From assembly GCA_029204225.1 (NCBI GenBank), contig CM055099.1, positions 68,193,084 through 68,257,083 of the forward strand: a DNA stretch of 64,000 nucleotides, read 5' to 3'. This DNA comes from Diphasiastrum complanatum. Its lineage: Eukaryota > Streptophyta > Lycopodiopsida > Lycopodiales > Lycopodiaceae. Positions 1,055-36,561 of this stretch are shown piece by piece (the first letter of the stretch is position 1; the number at the start of each line of letters is the position of its first letter). The notes under the pieces are model-generated. The model worked only from the letters and a program-made list of their open reading frames with translations. It had not been told where the DNA came from and did not search any database. The translations under genes were made by a program, and so were the position numbers.

Positions 1055-4000
1055 ATGGCATCTATAAATGCATATCTTTTGGATACTAATGAAAGGCTCA
1101 ACAAAACTAACTATTCCATATGGAAAGTTAGAATGGAATCTATCATGATCATGCAAGATCTGATGGAAATTGTAAATGGTAAGGAGGGTGAACCTATTCA
1201 TCCTCAAGAAAAAGCCAAATACATCAAGAGGTGCAATGTTGCACTACATTGCATAAAAATGAATGTTGCAAATGAACTCTTAAGAGAGGTAGGAGATTGC
1301 ACTTCATCTCAAGATGCTTGGGAGACTTTGCAAAAGGTCTATGAATCCAAGAACCAAACTAGAATGTTAGCTTTGAAGAATGAAATCTATAGAAGCTATC
1401 AAAAGAAAGGAGAGAGTGCACATACTTTTGTCCTAAGAGTAAAAGAATTGAACAAAGAGCTAGCCTTTATAGGTGAACCTATCAAGGATGAAGAGCTTGT
1501 TCAACTCATATTGAATGGACTAAGCTTTGAATTTGACAATTTGGTTCAGGGATATGCAATTATGGGTAAGCTACCCATACTTGAAGAACTCCAAGGCACG
1601 CTCATGGCCGAGGAATCAAGAAGGAGCCAAATGCAAGAGAGGATGGATAGGCTTTCCATCCAAGGTGGAGATGACCAAGCTCTCTTCACCAAAGGCAAAG
1701 GCAAGTCCAAAGGCAAAGGATCAACATTCAAGAAGTCTACAAAGCTTGAGGATCAAGAAGGACCCCCAAAGGCATCTCCATCAACCACCAAAGTCAAGAA
1801 GGACAAATCAAAGGTGAAGTGCTACTATTGTAGCAAGATGGGGCATTATGCCTCGGAATGCTTCAAGAGGAAGCAAGATCAAAGCCAAGCCAACATGAGC
1901 AAAGAGGAGGAGGAGGAGGAGGAGAGTTCACATGAGGACTCTCTCATGATGTCCATATTTTCTTCAACAAGCTTCAAAGGAGAAGATCCTTGGTGGATTG
2001 ACTCGGGTGCTAGTTCACACATGACTAGTAAAAGGGAGTTTTTCTCTTCTCTCTTATCTTATGATGGACCTATAAAGTCTATCTATACAGCAAATGATGA
2101 AGCTTGTAAGATTGAAGGAGTTGGTAGCATTCCCCTTTGCTTAGGATCTTCCAAAAAGATCAACATAGAAGGTGTTTTGTACATTCCTACAATAACAAAG
2201 AATCTACTAAGTGTTGGCCAAATGGTAGACAATGGTTTCAATGTTGACTTTGCTTCAAATGAATGTTTCATCAAGAAGAAGGGTAAGATAGTGGCTAAGG
2301 GCACTAGACTTGGCAAACTTTATAAGCTGGATGCATTTGTGGATACTATTGTTGTCATGTTGGCCGAGAAGAGCAAGATATCTACCTTTACTTTATGGCA
2401 CAAAAGACTTGGACATGTCAACTCGGGTTCCATGGAGGCTATGATCAAGGAGGAGTATGCTTTAGGCCTACCAAGGTCTATTGGGAAGGAAGACAAGGTT
2501 TGTGAAGCTTGTGCCTTATCCAAGGCACATAAGAAGGTGTTTCCTAACTCCATCACAAAGTCATCTCATCCTCTTGAACTCATACACTCGGATGTGCACA
2601 TTGCTAGCACCAAATCTAATGGAGGTTCATCCATGTTTTTAACCTTCATTGATGACTACTCAAGATATTGTTGGGTGTTCTTACTTTCCTTCAAGTCTCA
2701 AGTATTTGATACTTTTGTAAAGTTCAAGTTGTTTGTGGAAAAGCATCATAATCATAGCATCAAGATTCTTAGAAGTGACAATGGTGGAGAATTCATCTCC
2801 AATGAGTTCAAGGCCTTTTGTGAGGAGGAAGGGATCAAGAAAGAGACTTCTTGTCCTTACACTCCTCAACAAAATGGAGTTGCTGAAAGAAGGAATAGAA
2901 CATTATGTGAATGTTCTAAGGCTTTAAGATTAGATGCTTGTTTGCCCAAATCCTTTTGGGGTGAGTCTCTTGTATGTGCAAACTACTTGATGAATAGGGT
3001 GTCTTGCAAAGCAATTGAAGGCAAAACTCCATATGAGATGTTGTATGGAAAGAAACCCAATCTTAATCACTTGAAAGTTTTTGGGTGTATATGTTATGTG
3101 CATGTGCCATTGGAAACAAGAACCAAGGAGGATCCATCTTCCACAAGAGGGATCATGCTTGGATATGCAAGCTCAAGCAAGGGCTACAAATTCTATCTCC
3201 CATCCTTGAACAAATTTGTTGTTTCAAGGGATGTCATCTTTGATGAACATCATATGCATATGCTTGAAGAAGGCTCAAGTGCTCCAACAATCAAGAAGAA
3301 GATGGCCGAGGAGCAAGATCTTGGTTTTGAGGAGGAGCTCATGGAGGAGCAAGCACCAAACCCACCTATCACACCAAGGAGATCTTCAAGGGCAAAAGTG
3401 GAGCCATCAAGGCTCACATATCAAGGCAAAGGACAGCAAGTTGAGGGTATATCATCCACTTCTTATGCTTTATCTAGTTTTGAAGAACCGTCTAATGTTG
3501 AAGATGCATTGAACTCCAAAGAATGGTATAAAGCTATGTTGGATGAGTATGATGCCTTGATTGAGAATGAAACTTGGTTGCTTGTTGAGAGACCTCAAAG
3601 GAATGTAATAGGATGCAAGTGGGTCTTCAAGCTTAAGTTGAATGCAAATGGGAGTGTTAAGAAACATAAAGCAAGATTAGTTGCAAAAGGTTATGCTCAA
3701 GAGAGAGGGATAGACTATGAGGAAACTTTTGCACCCGTGGCCAAGATGGTCACAATAAGACTAATCATTGCACTTGCATCACATTTTGGATGGATTCTAT
3801 GTCAAATGGATGTCTCTAATGCTTTCTTGAATGGTTTTTTGGAAGAGGATATCTATATGGAGCAGCCACAAGGGTTCATCAAGCATGGAATGGAGAACAA
3901 AGTATGCCATCTCCAAAGAAGCATCTATGGCTTGAAGCAAGCCTCGAGATCTTGGAATTCAAGACTACATTGCTATCTTATTTCACTTTCTTTTGTTCAA

Positions 4001-5029
4001 AGTGAATATGATCCCACTCTTTACATTAAGTTTGATGATGTTGGTATTGTACTTTTACTCATTTATGTAGATGACATCATCATTAGTGGAAATAGTGTTG
4101 ATGGTATTGAAAAAATCAAGATAGATCTATCCTTAGAGTTCAAGATGGTAGATCTAGGGTGTCTTCACTTCATCTTAGGCATAGAAGTACTTAGAGGGTC
4201 TGATTTTATCTTTATAAGTCAAGTAAACTATGCTCAAAGTCTTTTGAAGAAGTTTAAGATGGAAGTATGCAAAAGTGTTGACACACCAATGGAGCAAGAT
4301 GTAAAAGTGCCAAATGAAGATGATGAAAGATCCTTCATGGACATCACTTTGTTTAGGCAACTTATAGGTTCCTTAATGTGGATCACTATAACTAGACCAG
4401 ATCTTAGCTTTAGTGTATGTAGGTTGAGCCAATCCATGCAAAAGCCATTGAATATCCATTGGAAAAAGGCTAAGAGGATTCTAAGATACATCTCGGGTAC
4501 ATTGGATTTTGGGATTCTATATAGAGGAGATGTGATTAACCTTCATGCATTTAGTGATTCAGATTTTGCAGGGGACAAGAGGGATAGGAAATCAACAAGT
4601 GCCTATTCAACTTTCATAGGAGAAGGTGTGGTTTCATGGCTTTCAAAAAAGCAAGAAACTATATCTCTATCTTCAACCGAGGCCGAGTACAAAGCTTTGA
4701 CAACCACTACAAAGGAGGTACTTTGGATCAAGAGATTATTGGTGGAACTAAAGATCATGGATTCAGAGGAGGCACCAATCATCTACAATGACAATATATC
4801 AGCCCAACACCTTGCATCTAACCCAATCTTCCATGCAAGATCTAAGCACATTGAGATATGCCATCACTTTGTGAGAGAAATGGTGCAAGCCAAGGAGATT
4901 GCTTTGGAGCATGTTCCAAGCAATGAATGTGTAGCTGATCTACTTACTAAACCACTTCAAAAGACACCTTTTATGAAGTTCAGATCATCACTTGGAGTGA
5001 TTAGTAAAGCAATGATTGAACCAAGCTAG
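1055..5029 (+). CDS. Intact Ty1/copia gag-pol polyprotein (1324 aa)
   Basis: This polyprotein makes the particle, protease, integrase and reverse transcriptase/RNase H for retrotransposition. The N-terminus is a copia Gag domain. A CCHC zinc knuckle follows (C256, C259, H264, C269). The retropepsin active site is DSGA at 316-319. Integrase has its zinc-binding histidines at about 449 and 454 and a catalytic D513, D575, E611 triad with exactly 35 residues between the second Asp and the Glu. The RT catalytic YVDD is at 1004-1007, and copia RNase H signatures follow to the end. There is no stop or frameshift, and gag and pol are one frame without a recoding site. The stop is two bases before the polypurine tract. 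Length is normal for a plant copia element. Confidence 0.95.
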   Translation: MASINAYLLDTNERLNKTNYSIWKVRMESIMIMQDLMEIVNGKEGEPIHPQEKAKYIKRCNVALHCIKMNVANELLREVGDCTSSQDAWETLQKVYESKNQTRMLALKNEIYRSYQKKGESAHTFVLRVKELNKELAFIGEPIKDEELVQLILNGLSFEFDNLVQGYAIMGKLPILEELQGTLMAEESRRSQMQERMDRLSIQGGDDQALFTKGKGKSKGKGSTFKKSTKLEDQEGPPKASPSTTKVKKDKSKVKCYYCSKMGHYASECFKRKQDQSQANMSKEEEEEEESSHEDSLMMSIFSSTSFKGEDPWWIDSGASSHMTSKREFFSSLLSYDGPIKSIYTANDEACKIEGVGSIPLCLGSSKKINIEGVLYIPTITKNLLSVGQMVDNGFNVDFASNECFIKKKGKIVAKGTRLGKLYKLDAFVDTIVVMLAEKSKISTFTLWHKRLGHVNSGSMEAMIKEEYALGLPRSIGKEDKVCEACALSKAHKKVFPNSITKSSHPLELIHSDVHIASTKSNGGSSMFLTFIDDYSRYCWVFLLSFKSQVFDTFVKFKLFVEKHHNHSIKILRSDNGGEFISNEFKAFCEEEGIKKETSCPYTPQQNGVAERRNRTLCECSKALRLDACLPKSFWGESLVCANYLMNRVSCKAIEGKTPYEMLYGKKPNLNHLKVFGCICYVHVPLETRTKEDPSSTRGIMLGYASSSKGYKFYLPSLNKFVVSRDVIFDEHHMHMLEEGSSAPTIKKKMAEEQDLGFEEELMEEQAPNPPITPRRSSRAKVEPSRLTYQGKGQQVEGISSTSYALSSFEEPSNVEDALNSKEWYKAMLDEYDALIENETWLLVERPQRNVIGCKWVFKLKLNANGSVKKHKARLVAKGYAQERGIDYEETFAPVAKMVTIRLIIALASHFGWILCQMDVSNAFLNGFLEEDIYMEQPQGFIKHGMENKVCHLQRSIYGLKQASRSWNSRLHCYLISLSFVQSEYDPTLYIKFDDVGIVLLLIYVDDIIISGNSVDGIEKIKIDLSLEFKMVDLGCLHFILGIEVLRGSDFIFISQVNYAQSLLKKFKMEVCKSVDTPMEQDVKVPNEDDERSFMDITLFRQLIGSLMWITITRPDLSFSVCRLSQSMQKPLNIHWKKAKRILRYISGTLDFGILYRGDVINLHAFSDSDFAGDKRDRKSTSAYSTFIGEGVVSWLSKKQETISLSSTEAEYKALTTTTKEVLWIKRLLVELKIMDSEEAPIIYNDNISAQHLASNPIFHARSKHIEICHHFVREMVQAKEIALEHVPSNECVADLLTKPLQKTPFMKFRSSLGVISKAMIEPS

Positions 5030-15387: not shown

Positions 15388-16093
15388 ATCTAGATGGAGG
15401 GGCTTGAATGACTGGCTGTTGTAGCATTCTTGAGACCTGGTAAAGGTTCTTTTGGTTGTGACAGGATCCATTGAGACAACTTTTCCACCATATTGCGGAG
15501 GCCGTTTATTCATCATTGTCCATTCATGCCAGCTATGTAAGGTCAGTGGGTAGATAAGGAGGTGGGCTTTGTGATTTAGTCAGATTGGCTGATATTGTCT
15601 GTTTGTGCCAAAAACATACTCAAATCTGACCGCGAATCATTCTTAATCATAGAAATCCAGATCAAGGAAGAAAAAGACCCCTTAGATAATCTCTTCAGTC
15701 CTTTTTTCTAGTAGTATATGACCACAAGCTTAGAGGAAGCGCATGCTAATGTTTGTTTTCTAATCAAGTTTATCAGAGGGAAAAGAAATCTGACAATTAT
15801 TCCAGGGGTTGGTTTTCGCTACTTTTGCTCGTGGGATCTTTGCAAGCTAGCTAGTTCAATAATCTAAATTGTAAATCGTACTCCTCTTCGAAACTCTGTT
15901 ACAACTTGGATGCCTCTAACTTCCGTTTTACTGGCAATCAAGGCATTCATATGCTATTTCACATGTAGTAATCTCCAGATCTTGTTTCTGTGGTATCCGC
16001 CATTTCGCTGTACAAGGCCTCGCCCCCACTCGTTTGAAGTTTGAACTGCTGTGCGTGCGCAGTTACTTTGAAGAAACTCTCACGATTTGAAAG
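15388..16093 (+). promoter_or_regulatory. Probable promoter and 5' UTR region of the STOP1-like gene
   Basis: About 700 bases precede the start codon. Pyrimidine-rich stretches and several GT/AG pairs would allow a 5' UTR intron, but I cannot place a transcription start or TATA box with confidence. Confidence 0.4.
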
Positions 16094-17764
16094 ATGAATC
16101 CTTCTACCTCTAGATACTCTTCTGATGGCGGCGATGCCTCCAAGTTCTCCTTCTTGGGTGAGCAGCTTACGACTTATAGTTCCTTTCAGCATAACCAGCA
16201 ACCTTCTGATTCCACTGGCCTTAGTTTCAGTGGTGCATCTCTATCTCATTCTCATGCACAGGCTGCTGGTCAAAACCTTATCCCGCAATCCCGTCAACAG
16301 CCCCAAGGACTCGTAGGTTCAAATGCTGCTAGTAAACCGATAAGCCTTCACCAGCTCGTGGATTTTGGTATGGGCAGTTCCGGTCCCATTTTGAGTGCCC
16401 AATTGGTGCACGGGTTGCAGGAATCAGCAAGGGCCCCCTCACCGGTGGCTGATGCTTCCTCACAAGCACTCATGACGACACTCTTGCTTCTCCAGCAGAA
16501 AATAGGGCACTTGCAGACACTTGTGCAGCTCATTGCGCAAGGGGATATGTCCAATGCTTCTGCAACCCAACAGCAGATGACAACAGCCGCAGGAATTGCA
16601 ACAGTTATTTCTCAGTTGGTAACAGCAGCTGCAGGGTGGCTGCCACAAGTACATCAACAATTTCAGCATCCTCTGTCCGATCAGAGGAGTCACTTTGGAT
16701 CAACATCCTCACCAGACATGGCTTTCTTTCAGTACAATGGACCTCCGAGTTCACTTGGGACTGCTTTCGGAATCTCTGCTGGCAACGGTAGATTCAATTC
16801 CTCTGTAGATCGAGGAAGAGAAAACAACTCAGGGGTTGAATCCGTTGTAGTCAAGACTAGATTAGATGGATCACCAGAGATTGGTAGGCAGTTGTTTGAA
16901 GCACATGGAGGCCATGCTTCAAGCTGCACCATTCGAAGCTCGCTTGAAACTACTGCTGGCAACTCTCTTGTAGGTTCTTTTGCTGTCAGTTTAGGTACAA
17001 GTGGGGATGGGACTATCAACCTTGAGGAAGAAAATATAGCTCTATGTGTTGGAAATCCTTTCGTGTCGAGCATTTCAATGGAGATTAATTCATCTTCAAA
17101 AGATCAGGATTCTGGAGGTGTCTATAAGGAAGATGAAGATGATGGAGAAGCTGAGAATTTACCTCCTGGTTCTTATGAGTTGATTGAATTAGAAGCCATT
17201 GAGATTCTAGCAGAGCATACTCACTTTTGTGAAATATGTGGAAAAGGTTTCAAGAGGGACGCAAACTTGAGAATGCACATGAGGGGCCATGGAGATGAGT
17301 ATAAGACGGTTGCAGCTCTCACAAAACCAGATAAGTCCTCCCAGGACCCATCATTAAGAAAGCCAAGAAGATATTCTTGCCCATATCTTGGTTGCAAAAG
17401 GAACAAAAACCATAGAAAATTTCTTCCTTTGAAGACGATGCTGTGTGTGAAAAATCACTACAGAAGAAGTCATTGCCCAAAGATGCTCACATGTACCAAG
17501 TGCAGGACCAAAAAGTTTTCTGTGGCTGCAGATCTAAAGACGCATGAAAAACATTGTGGACGTGACAAATGGCAATGTTCATGTGGTACCACCTTCTCTA
17601 GGAAAGACAAGCTTCTAGGACATGTAGGGCTCTTTGTAGGGCATGCGCCTGCAACGCCTCTTCATGAAATTGATATGGGTGGAAGTGGAATGGAAAGAAC
17701 GGAAACTCAGAGTGCCTCTGGAAATGGGACTACTAATATCTGCAGTCAAGGCTTTACAAAGTGA
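16094..17764 (+). CDS. STOP1-like: STOP1-family C2H2 zinc-finger transcription factor (556 aa)
   Basis: STOP1 (SENSITIVE TO PROTON RHIZOTOXICITY 1) and rice ART1 are nuclear factors that switch on acid- and aluminium-tolerance genes. The N-terminal half is Ser/Gln-rich, with a conserved helical segment ([18 protein letters not shown]) at about 135-155. The C-terminal half has four zinc fingers in STOP1 order: C379/C382/H395/H399; C429/C434/H455/H460; C467/C470 with H484 and C488 or H487; and C495/C497/H510/H517. The linker [10 protein letters not shown] and [10 protein letters not shown] are characteristic. The start is the first ATG of the frame and the N-terminus is not truncated. The ORF end coincides with a strong splice donor (AAA|GTGAGT at 17761), so the true C-terminus may differ; see the candidate intron. 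Family assignment is firm; the role in acid or aluminium response is inferred from the family. Confidence 0.93.
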
Positions 17765-20593: not shown

Positions 20594-20815
20594 TTCATTA
20601 CAGGAGTTCCAAGGCCCAAAAGGGCTGTTTAAGAAATGCCACGTAAGAGAGAAAAAATCGTCGGATTTTAAAACTCCGACCGAGTTTTTGGTTTGCCCAC
20701 ACAACTTCGATGACTTGACCTCACTAGTAACGTATGTAGTTAACTGGAAGTTGGGTAGCCGCAATGCGTGGGGTCCATACTTCAAGATTCTATTTTCTAC
20801 CATTAACTAACATAA
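20594..20815 (+). repeat. Possible left terminal inverted repeat
   Basis: Degenerate, collinear similarity to the reverse complement of 29845-30137, strongest over the first about 35 bases. It needs a proper alignment. Confidence 0.35.
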
Positions 20816-21285
20816 CTTCTCATGTAAATGCAAATCGTATTGCACATCAGAGTTTTCTTTTCATCTACTCAAAGCGTTCACATCAATGAAAAACAGTCTT
20901 ATCGATCTGAAAATCATGGTAAGAAACTTTGAATATTTTGGATCACAATGAGCGCCAACGTGAATCTAAATTTTTGCAATTTTGAAAATACGGAGTGTGT
21001 TGGATCAAATTGAGTGGTAAGGTTATTTCAAACTTTTGCAATTCAAAAATTTGCGATTTCAACACACATCTATTGAAAAAATATTTTGCTTATTTTGCTC
21101 ATAACTGCGAAGCATTGATTTTGCATATCAAGCAAGAAATATGGAGTGTGATGGATCAAAAAGAGCGCCAAGGTCATTTCAAACTTTTTCAATGAATTTT
21201 TTTTTTTTAATTAAGACGAGTTTTAATAGCTTACAAGATATATAACAAGTTGGTTTTCTACTAGATTAATCTATCGATTATTAAG

Positions 21286-23993
21286 ATGTCTAAATATCAT
21301 CTCCATATTGATCTTCCCACAGAATATGCTCCACTGTCGAGAAAAAATCTGAAAGGATCCACCTTTTCAGCTCACCAAAGGACGGAAGACAGGAAACATT
21401 GTGATCTATGGGTTGATGGAAGTTTGTATCCAATCGATCCAAGCTCAATGCAACATCCAAATTTTAGATCGGTCACACAACTCATACTGTTTTTGTGTGA
21501 AGGACACAATGGTCTATTGGGTTATTGTGAAAGATTGAAAAGTTATGGCATTAGAAATTCAATGAAAAAAATCCATTGTTTGGAAAATATGTTGAATGGT
21601 TTGCTTACTGACTACCGAGAAAGAGGAACTATTTTTTTGCAAACAAAAGAAGAGAATGAAATCTTGAAGATAGATAATTCTCGTTTGCAAGATATTATAT
21701 TAAACCTCAACCAACAATATGAAACTAATTGTACAAACATTGCGTACCTCATATTGTCAAATACATGTAGAAGTAAACACATTACGGAAGAAAATACTGA
21801 ACAATAAGCAAAAAAGAGTTATTTTAAAAAGTATTGATGAGCTTTCAACAAGTGGGGGCCAACGGAAAAAAAGAATATATGCTTTCAAGTAAGATTATGT
21901 TTTAAACTATTCATGTGTTTTGTTTCATCTAGCACTCAATGGTTGTGAATTGTTTTTTTTCTAAATCTTATTTTTCTTTTGTAGATTAGCTTTAGTCACC
22001 AATGAAAATCTGAAAGACAAGGACATGATTGGAAAGTCTTTGAGTGTAGTACTTACAGCCAAGTCAACAACGAGTCTACTTGGAAATCAACGATATTCTC
22101 AAATCAAGTCCAAGATTGCAGAGGCCCTTATGGGCGAAGTCGGCAAGATCATTGACCGAAAATTGATACAAGGGGCATGTGATTATTCTGGTATTAGCAG
22201 GGATGCATATGACACAATGTTTAAAATTATCAAAGAGGCATTTGGACAAGTACATATAAAAAAATTTCCTATTCCTCGGCCCTTTCAAATCAAATTAGAG
22301 AGGGATGTGTTAAACAAGGATTTGCAAAACATCATTGGTATTCCTTACCATATAAATGAAATTTATAACTCAAAACATGGCACTTTGTCATGTGATTATA
22401 CCAACAATATGTTTGTAGATCTGAATCATTTACTGAGATTTATTGTAAAGTTTTATGGAATCACAAATGAAAGTGTTGAAAAATTGATATTAGTTCTCAA
22501 GTTAGATGAATCAGAAGTAATAAAGGGACAAAAGCTGGAAAGGGTTAGTGTTACAATTATGAATGGAGCATTAAGCAATACGATAAACTCGGAGAGTCTT
22601 GATTTCAGTGTGCAGTCCGAAAATAATATTTGGTGGTTGGCAGCTTTCCAGGTTTAAATCTATTCTATTGAGTACTAGCAACTAATTCATTTCAAGAATT
22701 AATGGTTTTGTGTTTTAAGTTAATATTGTTCTGTTATTATAGGTCTGAGTTCAATTCTCCTAAATTAGTTCATGATTTTGCGTTTTAAAAGAAGATCAGG
22801 ACATTCTATTTTGGATTTTTAGTAAAACAGAATATCCAGAGATAATTAAGAATCATATGAGCGACACACCACTCAATGTTCTTGGAATAGGTGAATTTAA
22901 GGTGGAATGGCATTTGGCTGGAGACCTGAAGTCGTTGAAATGCTTGTTCCACGTCTCACATGGAGCAAATTCAAAAAATCCATGCCTCTATTGCATGAAA
23001 ATTACACATGACATGTCGAAGAGCACGAGAGTTTCAAGGGATATAGAAGATCCGACTTGGAAACCAGTATTACCGATTCTGCTTAAAAATGTTCACATTT
23101 GTACACTACATGGAGAGGTTAGAATATCGAAAAATTGATATAGCTTCATATTTGGTTTGCTTGGAATATTAAGCCAGAGTCATTAGCCAAAAAGGCAATA
23201 GCTCGATTGGAAGAAGTTTTATCAAAAGCGGGACTTCATAAAGGACACGCTAAAATACAAAAGGATGAGAAGCTTTAAGGAAAAACAGGAAACATCCCAT
23301 GCAAACCAAGTATAGGAGGATCCAAAGCTCGTCGTTTATTATCAAATCATTCTGGAAAACCAACTAAAGTCCAGTACTCAATTTGGATAGATGTACTCAA
23401 TGCCACAAAGGATTTTGAAGAAAAAGGAACAACGAGGATTAAAAAAGTTGAAGTCTGGACAAAGCTTGACAGCATGGTCAAATTGCTCAGAAAAAATAAA
23501 CTATCTGATACTGATGTCCTACTAATTGAGAAATCAACAATTTAGTTTGTGGATGCAGTTAAAGACGCCTGGGGTGAAGATCATATTATGCATTATATGG
23601 TAAATCTCTTTTCAATATAACTAACTCTTTGATTTATAATCTCATTGCACATATGCTAAATTTAAAATGATTAATATGACAATATTTGTATCTCTGATAT
23701 TGCAGCACATTTCACGACATCATGCATCATTTTTTGCAAAAGCTTATGGCAGTCTAAGTATTTGGTCATCACAAGGAATGGAAAAATCGCATTGGCAAGC
23801 CAGAGCAGCATTTCATCAAAATACACAACACGGTGGAACATCTCAAAAAAATAGTTACATCATCCAGCTATTTCAATGGTTCTACAAGCGTATTCAAATC
23901 CGATATAAAACTATATCAACAAATTATCAGAAATTCAGAAAGGCGTGCAAATTTGTAGACGAAAATAATATTGATGCAAGAGTCAACCCATAG
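21286..23993 (+). pseudogene. Broken multi-exon gene A, transposase-like, family unknown
   Basis: Exons, by GT/AG and frame: 21286-21888, 21985-22651, about 22790-23599 and 23706-23993. The product begins with basic and polar residues and a coiled-coil-like stretch ending in GGQRKKR (about 21860). Exon 2 is helical. Exon 3 holds WHLAGDLKSLKCLF, then HGANSKNPCLYC with a Cys-x2-Cys at 22983-22994, then LHGEVR. Exon 4 has SQGMEKSHWQARAAFHQNTQ followed by HGG. The order GGD-like Asp, CxxC, His/Glu-rich helix resembles uncharacterised transposase-like proteins that I recall from animals and fungi; that is memory, not a search. Breaks: a frame change near 21750, another near 23120, and in-frame stops near 23150, 23277 and 23545. 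It is convergent with gene B. Confidence 0.55.
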
Positions 23994-24066
23994 TAAATTT
24001 CATGATATCAGACGAAAAATGTATATGTATTATATCGCATCATGTGTAGTACAATGCAAGGCAAAA

Positions 24067-25198
24067 TCATTGTTTCTCTTTGTCTTTAATGATCAGCTTT
24101 GCTGTGTGGTCATGAAGAAATTTTTTTTTATCATATGGATCTAGAAAATCAATCGATCTTCTTTTGCTCAAGTCAATGTATCCAGAGAAAATAGCTAAGG
24201 AGGAAGACCTTTTCAGAACTTCCTCAGCTACATAGCCAAACACTTTTATGGCAATGTCTCTCTTCACAAAAATAATTTTATATGTATTCGGAGGGTATTT
24301 ATGCCCATTCGAGAAATAGGATAACACTTTAATTTCCATTATTATTGTCGCAGCATCTGAAGAAAATTTGCTATGATGAATGCAAATCTCTTTATTTACA
24401 AAGCACTTCAAATAATTGGACAGGGATGAATCCCTTTGTTGTGATCCCTGACCTTCTCTCAAATATCCTTGCCTTGTTGCAAAGGCATCCACCTCAACAG
24501 TAGCTTGTAAATATGAGCAAAGGTCACATGTCTTGTAAAACAAAATGACTATATTTGAATAAAAATCTCATTAAGATAAAACCAAATTTACCTACCAGAT
24601 CACGCTCATCAGCTTCAATAAGTGCAGCAGTATGTAGATCATGACCAGCAACAATGGTCGTCGAAGCACTGGATGGACTAGTTTCCAAAGACTGTGACAC
24701 ATATATGCTCTGGATTTTCAGAAATTCCTCCTCATTGGGCAAATTTGCCTGGTATGCCCTGCTTTCAAACATGATTGACTACAGTGCTTCAGTCCCATCC
24801 ATCCATTCATCTCCGTCTTTGTAATCAATAGAAGCACGTAGATCATCATCACCGTCGAGATTTGTGAAGTCCTCGAATTCTTTGACCACACGTTTAAAAT
24901 CACTCACGATTTTTGTGAATCGTTGGTCGTGGCTTTGCTTTGAAGATGGTTGGGCAAGTACTAGGTCATGGAAATGGATGAATCGTAGATTATCCATGAT
25001 CAACATAGACTGATTCAGACTTTCATAATACTCCTTATACAACACTGGAAAATATGATTTATGTTCTGATCCAAACCTCTCAATATCAAAAGACATATTG
25101 AAATACGTCTTATAGTGACCTATGTAGTTACCAACACCGGATTCAACGAGGAAGGCGTGCAAAGCAGAATCAAAAGTATTAGAGGATGACGCGGCCAT
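24067..25198 (-). pseudogene. Two-exon gene B of unknown function
   Basis: It starts with ATG at 25198 (MAASSSNTF). Exon 1 is 25198-24596, the intron 24595-24532 (GTAGGT to CAAG), and exon 2 is 24531-24067, with the reading frame maintained across the splice. A single TAG at 24779-24781 interrupts exon 1; the frame is otherwise open. The product would be about 350 residues: a helical N-terminus, an acidic DLDGDDD segment, TCDLCSYLQ (Cys-x2-Cys) right at the splice, and a mixed C-terminus ending in KDKEKQ. I do not recognise a family. It is divergent from gene C across the G-box/hairpin region, only 27 bases from the nearest hairpin module. Confidence 0.6.
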
Positions 25199-25224
25199 CT
25201 AGAAAGTATGACCAATATGGTTGA

Positions 25225-25375
25225 GTATCGCTACGACGCGGGGTGGCAGGGAGTTAAAAGACAATCAGGACTTCCTCGCGTGATGGCGATATTGGCGAAT
25301 GACCTGATATCGGAATGATGCGAGGGATCTTAGATCGTCTAGAATCTTTGAAAGATTCTCGCATGGTAGCGATAC
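25225..25375 (-). repeat. Two inverted-repeat modules on the gene B side
   Basis: Modules 25225-25293 and 25306-25375, each about 70 bp, start and end with related arms of the type GATATCGCYAYMACRCGAG in opposite orientation. They are spaced 12 bases apart. The same module occurs twice on the gene C side at 26017-26172. Confidence 0.75.
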
Positions 25376-25539
25376 TGCAAATAAAAAGAACTGTTCACAC
25401 ACTGTGAGATACAGGGAGTGAAAATCCAAAACTTAGCAAAATGTTTTAACTGATCAAACAAAATTTATTTAGCTAAAACCAAGAAAATCCAAGCCGTACA
25501 CTCGTCGATCCAACAACAGATCAGATCTATGGCGCGTAG

Positions 25540-25920
25540 TACAACCGTCCACACGTGTGAGATCACACGTGCTACAATACACGTCAATCTGCCATTCGCC
25601 CATGTGCCCATACGTGCAAGATCACACGTGCCAGAACACATGTCACTAAACCATTGGACCACGTGGACACACGTGCAAGTTTCACACGTGCGGATATAGA
25701 GGTGTAGGTCCCACACGTCAGGTACTGATTGGGCCACGTGACCACATGTGTGAGCCTATACGTGCAAGAACACATGTCACTGATCCATTTGGCCACGTGT
25801 CTCCACGTGGTTTCCCACACGTGTTGATCCAGACGTGCAGTTTCACACGTGCGTATACAGACGTGTAGTTCCACATGTCAGCTATTGACTGGGCCACATG
25901 TCACTGGTATTCACACGTGC
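25540..25920. promoter_or_regulatory. CACGTG (G-box) cluster in the divergent B/C promoter
   Basis: About 16 ACGTG cores, 12 of them the palindrome CACGTG and many within CACACGTG, plus ACATGT variants, lie within about 380 bp. They sit in a degenerate higher-order repeat of roughly 110-130 bp with phrases such as GGGCCACGTG and AACACATGTCACTGAT. CACGTG is the core site of plant bHLH and bZIP factors. ORFs called through this repeat are artefacts of its periodicity. Confidence 0.75.
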
Positions 25921-26016
25921 CAATTTTTCTCCCCTATAAGTCCATTCTCGGGGATTGTACAGGTTTTCGCATAATTTGCTAGCACGTTTGATTGCATCCA
26001 TACGAAATGCATTCGT

Positions 26017-26172
26017 GATATCGCCATCACACGAGCGACCTCCTCTCCATGCCCATTCCTTACACCCTCTCGTGTTGTAGCGATATCAGCTTGACTTCCT
26101 CAATATCGCCATCACGTGAGCCCCTGCCTCTCCCCGCCTGACTCTACCACTCTCTCACGTCGTAGCGATATC
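26017..26172 (+). repeat. Two inverted-repeat modules on the gene C side
   Basis: Modules 26017-26087 and 26103-26172 have arms GATATCGCCATCACACGAG and, at the far end, CTCGTGTTGTAGCGATATC. The latter is the inverse of a near-identical arm. They are spaced 15 bases apart and end about 70 bases before the gene C start codon. Confidence 0.8.
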
Positions 26173-26240
26173 ACGGTTAGAGTTCTCAGTGTCTCTTCTG
26201 TTGTGTCTCTATCCTCGCGTAGTATAGATATTCAGCCTCA

Positions 26241-28069
26241 ATGGCTTGGATGAAACAAACCGCTAGGCTTACCAGTTTCTTTCATCCGTCCCGTCCCCAG
26301 ACATCTAAACCCGTACGTTCGCAAAGATGCGGTAGACCTAGTTGTCCATGGTTGAGGGACATCAGGGCCTTGCAGAGGAGCAGCAAACTTCTGATCCCGA
26401 AAGCAGCCTTCTATTGGGCTATGAGAGAGGTTACACAAGACATGACCACCCATCTGCCCTATGCAGTGAGGTGGAATATCACTGCATTGGAGGCCCTCCA
26501 TACTGCATACGAGGATTTCTAGACAAAATTGTTTGAGGATTTGATGATGTGCTCCATTCATGGCAAGAGGGTGACACTGATGCCCAAGGACATGCTTCTT
26601 GTCATGAGGCTTTGAAACACCTATGACAGCATTTTTAAGTCAGGATTCACACAGAGGCAAGTTCCTCTTGAAAAAGGGCCTGTCCCACCCCGCAAAAAGA
26701 GAAAGCAAGCACAGCCCAAGCGTTCGCAACCCAAGCCCAGGTCTCCCAGCTCTTCACCCTCACCTCCTCCCATTAGAAAAGATCTGGCTAGTACATCCGC
26801 AATTCCACTAGTTGAGAGTCCTCCCGTAACCCCTGATCTTCAATAACACGATTCTCCTTCTATACATGAGGATGACCTAAATACAGTGGTAGACATGATT
26901 GTTTCTGATGTTGATGCAACTGATAAAGAGTTGCATATCAGACTTCCGAATGAACCTAAAGACACATTTTTTTATTCTGAGAGGTACATTGATTTTGACC
27001 TGTATATAGCCAAGAAAATAGATGATCTCGGAGGGGAGTTTATGTTCTGTATAGACGATATTAATTTTGCAATGCATATCAAAGACCCGCATTGTAGGGA
27101 GCTAAAAGAAAAGACCTCATATATCTCAGACACAGTAGTTGAATCTGCTTGTGCATACTATCTACATAAATATACATATACAGTCACGAAGGAGATTTTT
27201 GTTGTATCTCCATTTTTTGGGCATCTGTTGAATAAAGAGAGGAAAGCCAGAAGGCTCTTCAGGCACACCAGCAAAGAGGCATCAATGTTCATTATCCCAT
27301 ACTGTTCAAAGTAAGATAGTTTCTTCTTGTAATATCTGTTTTCTGTAAGATTTTTCTTTTGGAAACTCTTATAGATTCTAGTAATTCATTGCTTGTCTCT
27401 TTCTGGCAGCAAACATTGGAGTGTGCACATCATATCCATGAAAGTGGATTCGACTGGAAGCTGCACACTTGTGTGCATGACAATGAATTCTTTGCATGCC
27501 ACCCATTCCATGATTAAATCCATGTACAAAAGGATGGTGGGGCTATTGCCCAGGCCGGATGGGTTGGTTGTAAATACCAACATAGAGGTTGTTGATGCAA
27601 AGGTAAAAGGAATCTTTTTACGTATTTTATTTGCATGATGGCATGTAGTTTAGAAATATATTGAATTATACTTTAACAACTTTTCGTTGTGATTTTTTTT
27701 TATGCTTTTAGCTGCGGATGGTAAATCGTTCTTGGATTGGTATATGGTGCAACCTCCAGATGCTAGTATCCGTGAGGTATTTTTTTCAATGTTCCAGTAT
27801 TCTGATGATATATTGTTAACTTTGTGAATTTATATATTTTAAAACATTGGCTAATACATACATACACTCGATATTTTTTTTTGCAGTTCCAATATCCTGA
27901 GGTATCAACAAATGCGATTCATCAGTATCGGCATGAAATGCTGGAAATTTTACTATCATGTGCAAGGCTCTACAAGCATGAAGGTGCCTCGGATGAACCT
28001 GCCAGAGGATCCGTGGATGAGGTTACAGTGCTCGAGGATATGCCTCAGGCACCTTTGATTGAAATGTAA
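26241..28069 (+). pseudogene. Gene C: CENH3-like histone fold joined to a C48 (Ulp1-like) cysteine protease, broken
   Basis: Exons: 26241-27310, 27410-27602, 27712-27776 and 27887-28069. Exon 1 is one frame with three stops: TAG 26520, TGA 26613, TAA 26844. Codons 1-124 are an H3 fold: KQTAR at 5-9, LRDIR at 38-42, LLIP at 50-53, REVTQD, RW at 77-78, AYEDF, and LFED...CSIHGKRVTLMPKD at 97-117. LLIP, a loop 1 longer than in H3, and RW followed by ALxAL resemble CENH3. A Pro/basic linker with PPRKKRK follows. The protease has PYCSN then HW (catalytic His codon 27414), MNS (Asn 27486, where Ulp1 has Asp) and CGW (Cys 27713) in exon 3. Exon 3 has lost the Gln-containing stretch and about 16-18 bases, and is out of phase. 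Whether histone fold and protease were one protein or two is unproven. Confidence 0.75.
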
Positions 28070-28557
28070 ATATAGTTCTGACAGACACATAGAAATATAT
28101 CATCACATGATGATCCATAGATTAATAGATAGGCAAATAGAAAGTGGGCTATTACTGAATGCCACAAATATATTATAACGATTTCAAAAGCAATGTACAT
28201 TTTTCAAAATACTAAATACAAATTGCTTGATGAAATCTTGAAGTCATTTGAGACTTCTTTGTATTCTTTTTTTTTTTTTGAAAAACTACATTGATGTTGC
28301 TCGTCTATCATCCCAATGTTTATGTGGTTTCAACAATTTCTATGCTTCTATTTAAGTCCTTGCACTCTATGCGACTTTCTTGTCTTGGCCTTACCTGTAC
28401 ATCAAAGAAACTTGTTAAACAATATCAACATTGAGATTATGTCAAATGAAATATTGCAATACCGAAAACACTAAAACATGTTCAAATAAAATTATTGAAA
28501 GTCATTTCAAATGTGTACTGGAATAAATACACATACACCTACCAATCTCTCGTTGAC
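28070..28557. other. Convergent intergenic spacer between genes C and D
   Basis: AT-rich, with homopolymer T runs. It holds the 3' ends of two converging genes. No ORF and no recognisable site. Confidence 0.5.
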
Positions 28558-29717
28558 TCAAAAACAGAAGTGTTTAGGAATATCATATTGCAGCAATGTA
28601 AGCTCTGATCGAATGTGATCGAGTGTCCAATCTTCTTCCACCTCAATTGTTGTAAGAGTAGAATTATTTTTCCTCACTTGAATTTCTATTTGATCTTGAT
28701 GATTCACTGTAAAATCCTGATCCAATGCTTCCATCCGTTGCCAACTTTGGACCATCTTCTATAATAAAATGTTAAAGAAAGCACTTGTTTTTCTATAAGA
28801 TATCTAAATTTCATTGACGATCTATTAACTATGCACTCGATATTGCCATTCCTCTTTTTATCCCAATGATCATCAAGGAGGCTTGATAACATATTGTCTG
28901 TTAAATCACTACAAATAAACATTGTCACTGTTTTACGAATATTACATTCAACAAAAATTGCAATAGGCAAAAACCAGTGCAATCTATTATTTTTTGAACC
29001 TGTGCTATATTTCATACAGTTTTGAATGTCCATAAGAAACCTTGATCGGAAGCTCTCTGCTATGGGGGAATATGGAGGAATCCATTCTTCGCTTGAGAAA
29101 GAGGGTAATGATATCGTCTCTAATTTTCCTCCTAAACTGGATGGTGTGTAAAATGAATCATAGAAGAAAATACAAGAATCCAAAAGTGATCTCGTGGAGT
29201 GGTTCTTGTATTGCAGAAGATCAATATCAGAATGAATAATGTCCATGATGTCGACAAGGGATTGTATAGGTTGCCATTCGATTATGTTTGATGGATACAA
29301 ATCTGCACAAATCCATAAAACTATATGTCATTCAAATACTCAGATACACGTCTAAATGATTAATGCAAAGCTCAAAGCAAAAAATTCTCCAAAACTTACA
29401 ATTGTATTTGAGTCTGTCATTTGAACTTATGCCTTCCACTCTAATTTCCTTATGCATGTAGACATGTTAAATCAAGACCTCTGAAATGGATCGACCACCG
29501 GGTGAAACTTTGAAGTCTAAAATTCTACCTTTCCAAAAATTCCTATAACCATATTTGATTTTCTCTTTTTACCAAAAACACCTCTTGAGGAGGGATGCAT
29601 GAGAACCCAATGAAATTTTCTATAGATACGTGGTATCCAAGAGCCATCAGAGTCTTTTTCATTACAAACAGAAACTGATACAATATTGCTTCGTGGTCTA
29701 CGGCTTTCGGAAGCCAT
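28558..29717 (-). pseudogene. Broken gene D of unknown function, possible beta-grasp C-terminus
   Basis: It starts with ATG at 29717 (MASESRRPRS). Exon 1 is 29717-29400, the intron about 29399-29303 (GTAAGT to GTGCAG), and exon 2 is 29302-28558. Exon 1 has a one-base frame change near 29530 and a TAA near 29468; exon 2 has a frame change near 28757. The N-terminal part contains FHWVLMHPSSRG and FKVSPGGRS; the middle is a mixed alpha/beta segment with WFLPIAIF. The last about 45 residues (IEIQVRKNN, IEVEEDWTLDHIRSEL, YDIP) look like a ubiquitin-like beta-grasp, which is a structural guess. No family is recognised. It is convergent with gene C. Confidence 0.5.
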
Positions 29718-29844
29718 TGCAAAGCTAAAAGAAGATGAACAACAGAGTCTGAAACAAAATATAGTTAAATCAGTATGAAAATAAATTATCAAATTTGTAA
29801 TAAATGTTGGTGGTCTTTCGTAAATCATATATGTTAGTCTAACT

Positions 29845-30137
29845 ATGGTTAGATCAAAATAGATTTACTTTAACCACAAGTTTAGGTCCCAAGCACTTCG
29901 AAAACTCACGAGCAGCAATTACGGTCCAATCACAAGTCAGGACCCTACCCGACGGGAGTTTTGAATTGTATAGAAATATGACCGGAAAGTTCCAAAAAAG
30001 AAATCGACCGGCAACAACGTTACGGTCTTTCACAGGTGTAAATATATAACTGGGCCAATGTACGTCGAATAGTTGAAAAGTCAAAAACAGCATCTTGACA
30101 AAAGACCCTTTTGGTGCTCAAAACTCCTATAATGAAT
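29845..30137 (-). repeat. Possible right terminal inverted repeat
   Basis: Its reverse complement shows collinear blocks with 20594-20815, beginning TTCATTATAGGAGTT. See the candidate element entry for limits. Confidence 0.35.
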
Positions 30138-32602: not shown

Positions 32603-35600
32603 CTAGCTTGGTTCAATCATTGCTTTACTAATCACTCCAAGTGATGATCTGAACTTCATAAAAGGTGTCTTTTGAAGTGGTTTAGTAAGTAGATCAGCTA
32701 CACATTCATTGCTTGGAACATGCTCCAAAGCAATCTCCTTGGCTTGCACCATTTAGTGATGGCATATCTCAATGTGCTTAGATCTTGCATGGAAGATTGG
32801 GTTAGATGCAAGGTGTTGGGCTGATATATTGTCATTGTAGATGATTGGTGCCTCCTCTGAATCCATGATCTTTAGTTCCACCAATAATCTCTTGATCCAA
32901 AGTACCTCCTTTGTAGTGGTTGTCAAAGCTTTGTACTCGGCCTCGGTTGAAGATAGAGATATAGTTTCTTGCTTTTTTGAAAGCCATGAAACCACACCTT
33001 CTCCTATGAAAATTGAATAGGCACTTGTTGATTTCCTATCCCTCTTGTCCCCTGCAAAATTTGAATCACTAAATGCATGAAGGTTAATCACATCTCCTCT
33101 ATATAGAATCCCAAAATCCAATGTATCCGAGATGTATCTTAGAATCCTCTTAGCCTTTTTCCAATGGATATTCAATGGCTTTTGCATGGATTGGCTCAAC
33201 CTACATACACTAAAGCTAAGATCTGGTCTAGTTATAGTGATCCACATTAAGGAACCTATAAGTTGCCTAAACAAAGTGATGTCCATGAAGGATCTTTCAT
33301 CATCTTCATTTGGCACTTTTACATCTTGCTCCATTGGTGTGTCAACACTTTTGCATAGTTCCATCTTAAATTCTTCAAAAGACTTTGAGCATAGTTTACT
33401 TGACTTATAAAGATAAAATCAGACCCTCTAAGTACTTCTATGCCTAAGATGAAGTGAAGACACCCTAGATCTACCATCTTGAACTCTAAGGATAGATCTA
33501 TCTTGACTTTTTCAATACCATCAACACTATTTCCACTAATGATGATGTCATCTACATAAATGAGTAAAAGTACAATACCAACATCATCAAACTTAATGTA
33601 AAGAGTGGGATCATATTCACTTTGAACAAAAGAAAGTGAAATAAGATAGCAATGTAGTCTTGAATTCCAAGATCTCGAGGCTTGCTTCAAGCCATAGATG
33701 CTTCTTTGGAGATGGCATACTTTGTTCTCCATTCCATGCTTGATGAACCCTTGTGGCTGCTCCATATAGATATCCTCTTCCAAAAAACCATTCAAGAAAG
33801 CATTAGAGACATCCATTTGACATAGAATCCATCCAAAATGTGATGCAAGTGCAATGATTAGTCTTATTGTGACCATCTTGGCCACGGGTGCAAAAGTTTC
33901 CTCATAGTCTATCCCTCTCTCTTGAGCATAACCTTTTGCAACTAATCTTGTTTTATGTTTGTTAACACTCCCATTTGCATTCAACTTAAGCTTGAAGACC
34001 CACTTGCATCCTATTACATTCCTTTGAGGTCTCTCAACAAGCAACCAAGTTTCATTCTCAATCAAGGCATCATACTCATCCAACATAGCTTTATACCATT
34101 CTTTGGAGTTCAATGCATCTTCAACATTAGACGGTTCTTCAAAACTAGATAAAGCATAAGAAGTGGATGAGATACCCTCAACTTGCTGTCCTTTGCCTTG
34201 ATATGTGAGCCTTGATGGCTCCACTTTTGCCCTTGAAGATCTCCTTGGTGTGATAGGTGGGTTTGGTGCTTGCTCCTCCATGAGCTCCTCCTCAAAACCA
34301 AGATCTTGCTCCTCGGCCATCTTCTTCTTGATTGTTGGAGCACTTGAGCCTTCTTCAAGCATATGCATATGATGTTCATCAAAGATGACATCCCTTGAAA
34401 CAACAAATTTGTTCAAGGATGGGAGATAGACTTTGTAGCCCTTGCTTGAGCTTGCATATCCAAGCATGATCCCTCTTGTGGAAGATGGATCCTCCTTGGC
34501 TCTTGTTTCCAATGGCACATGCACATAACATATACACCCAAAAACTTTCAAGTGATTAAGATTGGGTTTCTTTCCATACAACATCTCATAAGGAATTTTG
34601 CCTTCAATTGCTTTGCAAGACACCCTATTCATCAAGTAGTTTGCACATACAAGAGACTCACCCCAAAAGGATTTGGGCAAACAAGCATCTAATCTTAAAG
34701 CCTTAGAACATTCACATAATGTTCTATTCCTTCTTTCAGCAACTCCATTTTGTTGAGGAGTGTAAGGACAAGAAGTCTCTTTCTTGATCCCTTCCTCCTC
34801 ACAAAAGGCCTTGAACTCATTGGAGATGAATTCTCCACCATTGTCACTTCTAAGAATCTTGATGCTATGATTATGATGCTTTTCCACAAACAACTTGAAC
34901 TTTACAAAAGTATAAAATACTTGAGACTTGAAAGAAAGTAAGAACACCCAACAATATCTTGAGTAGTCATCAATGAAGGTTAAAAACATGGATGAACCTC
35001 CATTAGATTTGGTGCTAGCAATGTGCACATCCGAGTGTATGAGTTCAAGAGGATGAGATGACTTTGTGATGGAGTTAGGAAACACCTTCTTATGTGCCTT
35101 GGATAAGGCACAAGCTTCACAAACCTTGTCTTCCTTCCCAATAGACCTTGGTAGGCCTAAAGCATACTCCTCCTTGATCATAGCCTCCATGGAACCCGAG
35201 TTGACATGTCCAAGTCTTTTGTGCCATAAAGTAAAGGTAGATATCTTGCTCTTCTCGGCCAACATGACAACATTAGTATCCACAAATGCATCTAGCTTAT
35301 AAAGTTTGCCAAGTCTAGTGCCCTTAGCCACTATCTTACCCTTCTTCTTGATAAAACATTCATTTGAAGCAAAGTCAACATTGAAACCATTGTCTACCAT
35401 TTGGCCAACACTTAGTAGATTCTTTGTTATTGTAGGAATGTAGAAAACACCTTCTATGTTGATCTTTTTGGAAGATCCTAAGCAAAGGGGAATGCTACCA
35501 GCTCCTTCAATCTTACAAGCTTCATCATTTGCTATATAGATAGACTTTATAGGTCCATCATAAGATAAGAGAGAAGAGAAAAACTCCCTTTTACTAGTCA

Positions 35601-36561
35601 TGTGTGAACTAGCACCCGAGTCAATCCACCAAGGATCTTCTCCTTTGAAGCTTGTTGAAGAAAATATGGACATCATGAGAGAGTCCTCATGTGAACTCTC
35701 CTCCTCCTCCTCTTTGCTCATGTTGGCTTGGCTTTGATCTTGCTTCCTCTTGAAGCATTCCGAGGCATAATGCCCCATCTTGCTACAATAGTAGCACTTC
35801 ACCTTTGATTTGTCCTTCTTGACTTTGGTGGTTGATGGAGATGCCTTTGGGGGTCCTTCTTGATCCTCAAGCTTTGTAGACTTCTTGAATGTTGATCCTT
35901 TGCCTTTGGACTTGCCTTTGCCTTTGGTGAAGAGAGCTTGGTCATCTCCACCTTGGATGGAAAGCCTATCCATCCTCTCTTGCATTTGGCTCCTTCTTGA
36001 TTCCTCGGCCATGAGTGTGCCTTGGAGTTCTTCAAGTATGGGTAGCTTACCCATAATTGCATATCCCTGAACCAAATTGTCAAATTCAAAGCTTAGTCCA
36101 TTCAATATGAGTTGAACAAGCTCTTCATCCTTGATAGGGTCACCTATAAAGGCTAGCTCTTTGTTCAATTCCTTTACTCTTAGGACAAAAGTATGTGCAC
36201 TCTCTCCTTTCTTTTGATAGCTTCTATAGATTTGATTCTTCAAAGCTAACATTCTAGTTTGGTTCTTGGATTCATAGACCTTTTGCAAAGTCTCCCAAGC
36301 ATCTTGAGCTGAAGTGCAATCTCCTACCTCTCTTAAGAGTTCATTTGCAACATTCATTTTTATGCAATGTAGTGCAACATTGCACCTCTTGATGTATTTG
36401 GCTTTTTCTTGAGGATGAATAGGTTCACCCTCCTTACCATTTACAATTTCCATCAGATCTTGCATGATCATGATAGATTCCATTCTAACTTTCCATATGG
36501 AATAGTTAGTTTTGTTGAGCCTTTCATTAGTATCCAAAAGATATGCATTTATAGATGCCAT
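32603..36561 (-). pseudogene. Copia-2 gag-pol with a frameshift and a nonsense-creating deletion
   Basis: The domain order and motifs match Copia-1 almost residue for residue: Gag, CCHC knuckle, DSGA protease site, D,D(35)E integrase, YVDD RT and RNase H. Two breaks are visible against Copia-1. A one-base deletion near 33370, after the RT, shifts the frame. A nine-base deletion near 32753 in the RNase H C-terminus creates an in-frame TAA. An acidic run just after the knuckle is two Glu shorter. The first 1080 codons through the RT are open, so truncated Gag, protease, integrase and RT could still be made; a complete RNase H could not. Confidence 0.95.

Follow-up and report, generated by a model that had tools for sequence, protein, structure and literature searches.

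How does a histone fold come to lie in one reading frame with a protease? An earlier note on a 64,000-nucleotide stretch of contig CM055099.1 of the lycopod Diphasiastrum complanatum (hereafter the window) had described such a frame, read its first part as a centromeric H3 (CENH3) and its second as a Ulp1-like desumoylase, and proposed that a mobile element had joined the two. Following up this proposal, we find that the region is very probably the first of four exons of a gene carried by a decayed copy of a highly amplified multi-gene DNA transposon with terminal inverted repeats (TIRs), whose genes are a transposase, an accessory gene X, the histone-Ulp1 gene and a second accessory gene, Y. 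What the histone does for the element is a separate matter, and one on which our readings are considerably more tentative.

On re-reading, the frame at 26241-27314 has the same 358 codons and the same three in-frame stops, at 26520-26522, 26613-26615 and 26844-26846. Exon 1 itself ends at 27310, the frame's last codon, TAA, overlapping the GT donor of intron 1. Exon 1 of the putative fusion gene, which is open in two relatives, L067 and L073, occupies 26241-27310 on the plus strand, where the H3-type fold (26241-26615) is followed by a linker and by the N-terminal part of the protease region. Three further exons follow on the plus strand: exon 2 (27410..27602), with a protease His box that reads ..NKHWSVHIIS.. 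when joined and an Asn (..MNS..) where Ulp1 has Asp; a truncated remnant of exon 3, the catalytic Cys exon (27712..27776, its start being approximate), from whose shortened sequence the Q-box is missing when it is compared by eye with relatives; and exon 4 (27887..28069), the C-terminus of the fusion. The H3-type start and helix-3 block described earlier are present in 26241-26615, and a profile search of this interval gave Pfam Histone matches on either side of the first stop (26241-26522 at 1e-6, 26523-26615 at 2.1e-7), each exceeding the curated cut-off, so that the histone fold is far beyond chance. The pieces further downstream (26847-27314, 27375-27638 and 27809-28069) matched no Pfam family at E<=1, and the protease part can therefore be checked in relatives only.

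At least 42 matches to the window gene were found among those listed (40 of 1098 scored), mostly 91-94% identical to it. One copy of 26241-28069, 100% identical and inverted, lies at 68725069-68726897 (minus strand) of the same contig, about 0.5 Mb off; either the two arose by a recent duplication with inversion or the assembly is at fault here.

Among ten close relatives of the window copy, exon 1 is open in two (L067 and L073), with a Pfam Histone match of 1.8e-21 in L067 and a start that reads MAR(T/K)KQT(A/V)R in those relatives where it is kept. All ten have the His-box exon. At the Cys box, read in four of the ten and from frames of at least 55 aa, L069, L070 and L076 have QQDDAFSCGW and L071 an altered form. 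Intact copies with both domains, which the earlier note had asked for, are found in the same genome in a family that we call A. Of five family A elements assembled with exon limits taken from one copy, C7 and C2 encode uninterrupted 470-aa proteins over four exons with three GT-AG introns, histone and protease standing in one continuous frame; in L010 the exons for the protease are deleted, and the frame is broken in L011 and L012. The C7 protein matches PF00125 Histone at 1e-27 and PF02902 Peptidase_C48 at 1.1e-10 (42.2 bits, against a cut-off of 20.7), along with Ulp1-type PDB chains at 0.001 and 0.0015, and the joined exons of L076 reach 23.5 bits with PF02902. The suspected C48 domain, to which the window pieces alone gave no match, is thus recovered above cut-off once the exons of relatives are joined.

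These intact frames support a true fusion of the histone with the Ulp1-like domain, the exon joins being predicted from GT-AG boundaries and homology; the exons of the window's family are the same. Whether the protease works is less clear. The motifs in C7 read NDHWSL and QQNDSFNCGW, and the His, Gln and Cys of the catalytic set are kept in C7, C2 and L076, but the His-Asp-Gln-Cys set is incomplete: Asn replaces Asp both in family A and in the window's family, which makes protease activity uncertain. A probe made from the C7 protease exons matched eight of nine family A loci, the ninth being L010, and none of 14 loci of a further family, B. Comparison of the predicted genes thus shows two arrangements of the histone: joined to a Ulp1/C48-like domain in the window's family and in family A, and without such a partner in family B, as the last part of a proline-rich protein.

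Beyond this genome, a first protein search with exon 1 returned 37 matches spanning 26-48% of the query, of which 14 were examined. A second search, with an alignment of the fusion, scored the 7994 candidates sharing most words; Histone and C48 occurred together in none of the best 120 of its 678 protein-database matches. The only likely relative among these 120 was P0022, a distant protein (itself part of the query) that resembles exon 1, and exon 1 only, of the same kind of fusion.

The surroundings of the gene bear out the mobile-element setting that had been proposed for it, TIR-bounded, multi-copy elements containing the gene. As read from its termini and gene content, the window element is a decayed 9,539-bp TIR DNA transposon (20596-30134). 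Its 5' TIR (20596..20630, plus strand) begins CATTACAGGAGTT, matches the 3' end at 26 of 35 bases and is similar to the 35-bp TIR of family A; its 3' TIR occupies 30100..30134, where the minus strand reads CATTATAGGAGTT. The predicted transposase gene (21265..23602, plus) was located by tblastn with family A and B transposase exons, with match segments near 21265-21804, 21965-22654, 22776-23126 and 23126-23602. Gene X (24067..25210, minus) rests on tblastn for 24893-25210 and, for its last exon near 24067-24567, on comparison by eye with the family A element. X and the histone-Ulp1 gene are divergent, and the region between them (25211..26240) contains direct and inverted repeats. Gene Y (28519..29327, minus) is homologous in families A and B; neither X nor Y matches a Pfam family. 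The same order, transposase(+), X(-), histone-Ulp1(+), Y(-), is found in the family A element, for which a comparison of copies gives 8,681 bp with 35-bp TIRs CATTAGAGGAGTTCTCAATATCAAAAAGACCCTTT. Family B, with ends CATTAGGGCCC, also has this order in L017 and L020, with X and the histone gene reversed relative to the transposase, and is rearranged at the transposase in L016 and L019. The X genes of the two families show a weak likeness (hhalign probability 9.6%), and a comparison of Y with the transposase N-terminus was not significant (hhalign probability 0.6%).

Several features lie in or beside these elements. Directly downstream of the family B histone gene is a 137-bp inverted match (L018 5366-5502) common to L014, L017, L019 and L020. 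In the window, the element is flanked by two copia-type polyproteins, oppositely oriented and almost the same when compared by eye, at 1055-5026 (plus, a single 1324-aa open frame) and 33322-36561 (minus). A 557-aa open frame with C2H2 zinc fingers at 16091-17761 (plus) resembles what we take to be a STOP1-type host gene.

To which group does the transposon belong? By its motifs, the predicted transposase is a member of the CMCT clade (EnSpm-Mirage-Chapaev-Transib, with RAG1). Numbered on the homologue P0038, residues D404, D501, C521 and C524 are invariant in all 11 rows of an alignment of homologues P0038-P0048; H755, H760 and E779 lie where only P0038 and P0041 reach in full, and were also read in L017, L020 and C7. 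The transposase thus has the DDE triad and, in the stretch from its second D to its E, C(2)C and H(3-4)H, the motifs of the clade as described in the available portion of PMC12730594 (RAG1 counterpart residues are from PMC4914335), and it has the RAG1/Transib transposase core fold. Direct family matches are absent: five transposase homologues gave no RAG1 or Transib Pfam family at E<=1, a transposase profile found no RAG1 or Transib in PDB at E<=10, and the proteins tried had no Pfam match to KDZ, RAG1, Transposase_21 or MULE, a missing match excluding nothing. A viral origin was also considered and dropped, none of 64 pattern matches to the transposase in viral contigs being confirmed.

The termini of the window element, C7, C2 and family B (CATTA...TAATG) have the CA..TG of the CMCT clade. 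The ends read carry CATTA, not CACTA, the exceptions being CAATA at one end of L014 and CATAA in L041. Target-site duplications are inconsistent: among eight copies or end pairs, four of them matched up by spacing only, we found a 3-bp match in one, 2 bp (by eye) in L014 and 1 bp in two. None of the eight has a 5-bp duplication, the length typical of Transib/RAG1 in the excerpted text of PMC4411706. The flanks of eight further matches, guessed to be family A, contained ends in 3 of 16 stretches, several of the matches proving to be rearranged or to lie outside family A; a search of L043 and L044 for the ends that L010 and L011 lack did not find them.

How far have these genes spread? In a search of the 1.74-Gb genome (at least 23 chromosome-size contigs), Pfam Histone gave at least 153 matches, with 150 of 6325 first-look candidates scored; 13 of the 153 listed are canonical H3 genes by score. 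From the others we chose 26 for reading, mostly with long open frames. All 24 of these that score 95-110 bits sit in repeated elements, nine in family A and 14 in family B, the last (C13) being a diverged B-like copy that adjoins a diverged A-like one. Two partial matches at 82-84 bits (L025 and L026), entertained as CENH3, proved to be intron-bearing canonical H3 genes. We counted 398 near-identical 50-base histone sites (at most 3 mismatches) of family A and 203 of family B, with reversed-pattern controls at zero, and the family A TIR end occurs 2378 times genome-wide (1154+1224, at most 3 mismatches; reversed control 0).

Two loci show unusual arrangements. In L057 (5018-5410 and 7171-7653) a diverged B-like histone with an X-like gene stands beside a diverged A-like histone with an X-like gene of its own, so there are further subfamilies. 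In L056 two open frames for the family A histone stand in tandem, at 313 and 1464 of the reverse complement.

Is the histone an H3 or a CENH3? That it is H3-type can be said with some assurance. The Pfam Histone matches of C7, L067 and the window pieces agree with the fold claimed in the earlier note, and the predicted protein shows both the core fold and the H3 signature of loop 2 and helix 3: the window's family, family A and family B all retain K-R-V-T in loop 2, the His of the H3-H3' contact and Lys-Asp in helix 3. These residues matter for H3 pairing and DNA contact. The proposed better fit to CENH3 survives in part. In its favour, the window's family has an RW within a loop-1 region four residues longer than that of H3, together with LLIP; against it, loop 1 is longer than that of H3 by one residue in family A and by none in family B. 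The corresponding excess is eight residues in P0022 and one to two in CENH3/CENP-A reference sequences. Similarity scores are no more one-sided. The best PDB match of the window's family is Cnp1 (9.6e-19), essentially tied with H3-type chains (from 6e-18), and relatives of the window copy score about equally with host H3.1 (188-198) and Sesamum CENH3 (196-202). Family A scores 214 with H3.1 versus 210 with Sesamum CENH3, its top score among those compared being with a springtail histone, P0002 (235), and family B scores 240 versus 219. In phylogenies, element histones and P0022 group together with support of 64/87, which is not decisive, the bootstrap not having settled; a tree joining element histones with CENH3 is not rejected (p-AU 0.35); and most forks in the H3 trees are unresolved, the broken window sequence being unplaced in one of them. 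On these comparisons, a CENH3 ancestry of the element histones is neither shown nor rejected. As to the host's own histones, all eight H3.1-type genes inspected (L001-L008) have Tyr41; according to the available part of PMC5809374, Phe41 of H3.1 first appeared in ferns, and Tyr41 would accordingly place the host ahead of that lineage.

What might a transposon gain from a histone joined to a protease? The reading we favour, tentatively and as a quite possible one, is that the histone-Ulp1 gene serves as an anti-silencing module: a nucleosome-tethered SUMO protease that counters silencing. The histone part would pair with host H4 and enter nucleosomes; once nucleosome-bound, it would carry the tethered protease into chromatin; and the protease would there strip SUMO from silencing factors, keeping the element expressed. 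This would be the simplest use of such a fusion in a transposon. That loop 2 and helix 3 have kept their residues suggests a histone still able to pair and to contact DNA. A precedent exists in the Ulp1-bearing VANC genes of anti-silencing transposons (PMC13317346, in the portion available). Family B has no fused Ulp1, so whatever the histone does cannot hinge on the protease alone.

A further, rather doubtful possibility is that the transposon builds its own nucleosomes, a CENH3-like H3 variant (protease-tethered in one branch) giving the element's DNA a private chromatin that escapes or reshapes silencing. One search recognised no separate host CENH3 (150 of 5787 candidates scored), and it is even conceivable that the element histone mingled with the host's centromeric one or furnished it; this last suggestion carries little weight, since the search gave its non-canonical matches no individual reading and could miss a CENH3 split by introns.

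Imagine instead that the histone docks the transposase complex on nucleosomes, perhaps those with CENH3, so as to choose integration sites or scaffold donor DNA, the protease being secondary. In this scenario it would make sense that families with and without the fusion both retain the histone, next to a transposase of one kind, and that loop 1 is CENH3-like in the window's family. However, the ends read show no consistent target site, and the copies are dispersed. Top matches on ten contigs gave a Kolmogorov-Smirnov (KS) P of 0.057 and a within-contig SD P of 0.31 (n=60); exact-match sites, taken on contigs of known length with neighbours within 0.5 Mb merged, gave KS 0.37 and a borderline SD P of 0.052 for family A (n=39), and KS 0.39 and SD P of 0.84 for family B (n=57). 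Histone-bearing copies are thus dispersed and do not clearly gather at centromeres, family A alone giving a borderline hint of this. The centromere targeting that had been suggested is not supported by this pattern, and we regard docking of the transposase complex as unlikely.

The histone might also act on the host, as a decoy or dominant-negative H3 variant that takes up H3/CENH3 chaperones, or that alters chromatin or the cell cycle to favour transposition. In the alignment, helix-3 and loop-2 residues are H3-like whereas the N-helix and tail differ, as such a variant might; yet a toxic decoy at high copy number would cost the host dearly, and we consider interference of this kind improbable.

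If, on the other hand, fragments of a host histone and a host Ulp1 had simply been picked up and amplified without function, we would not expect the histone to have been conserved as it has. Between two family A subfamilies (20 pairs, which share sequences and so are not independent), dN/dS is 0.11-0.28 in the histone but 0.39-0.74 in the neighbouring linker; in the protease part it is 0.11-0.83, with 18 of the 20 pairs at 0.55 or below and the L010 pairs spanning only 103-116 codons. The family A histone is under purifying selection between subfamilies. A histone gene is, moreover, retained in families whose folds are only 38-55% identical, and intact frames exist. Plant transposons do often bear captured fragments (PMC13317346, available part), the window copy is broken, and constraint within young subfamilies is low: dN comes close to dS or exceeds it in several histone pairs of the younger family A subfamily, and pooled pN/pS for family B is 0.44 in the histone and 0.47, hardly more, in the rest of the exon. 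Such low constraint is expected of decaying copies, yet lends no support to function. On balance, functionless capture seems very improbable. That a host gene for a CENH3-like histone and protease is merely flanked by transposons, for which the CENH3-like sequence alone speaks, is scarcely credible when all 24 such matches that we read belong to element families, the gene lies within TIR-bounded copies and near-identical sites number in the hundreds; a single host gene is rejected by copy number and element context.

How does the proposed anti-silencing element compare with known systems? Its closest parallel in accessory genes is with the KIU/VANC genes of Vandal-type MULEs, also plant DNA transposons with a captured Ulp1-like domain, VANC directing hypomethylation of related elements (PMC13317346, available part). 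Those elements are described there as non-TIR MULEs, whereas the present one has TIRs, a CMCT-type transposase and a Ulp1-like domain fused to an H3 histone; no MULE family was matched in Pfam by the element proteins scanned, the transposase being CMCT-like. With the CMCT clade (EnSpm/CACTA, Mirage, Chapaev, Transib with RAG1, Plavaka, ESTA and Lanisha) it shares D-D-E, C(2)C and H(4)H, the CA..TG ends and a RAG1/Transib-like fold, but it differs in having mostly CATTA rather than CACTA, in showing no consistent target-site duplication, in matching no Pfam transposase family with the proteins tried and in carrying a histone gene. Fungal transposons with TET/JBP and oomycete transposons with SET likewise have an enzyme for chromatin or DNA marks aboard (PMC12730594, available portion), in their case a DNA dioxygenase or a histone methyltransferase and no histone. 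Plant CENH3 and yeast Cnp1/CENP-A resemble the element histone in their H3 fold and divergent N-terminal tail and, for the window's family, in LLIP and the RW of an extended loop 1; unlike them, the element histone is joined to a protease or a proline-rich domain, and its gene lies in transposons that run to hundreds of copies. Viral histones (Marseilleviridae doublets, bracovirus H4 and others) are also encoded by mobile genetic elements, but the carrier here is a transposon, not a virus. The available text of a viral-histone review (PMC9145170) names no transposon-encoded histone, that of a plant gene-capture review (PMC13317346) lacks the word histone, and titles, abstract openings and a phrase search of open-licence PMC papers yielded no description of one.

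Chromatin modifiers in transposons are already known; for a histone carried by one, we found no description among open-licence PMC papers. The element also adds a divergent RAG1/Transib/CACTA-group transposase, highly amplified in a plant genome and useful for tracing the clade. Should the fusion indeed be deposited in nucleosomes, a mobile element would have a direct means of writing the chromatin around itself, and the contest of transposons with SUMO-dependent silencing could be tested in a single protein.
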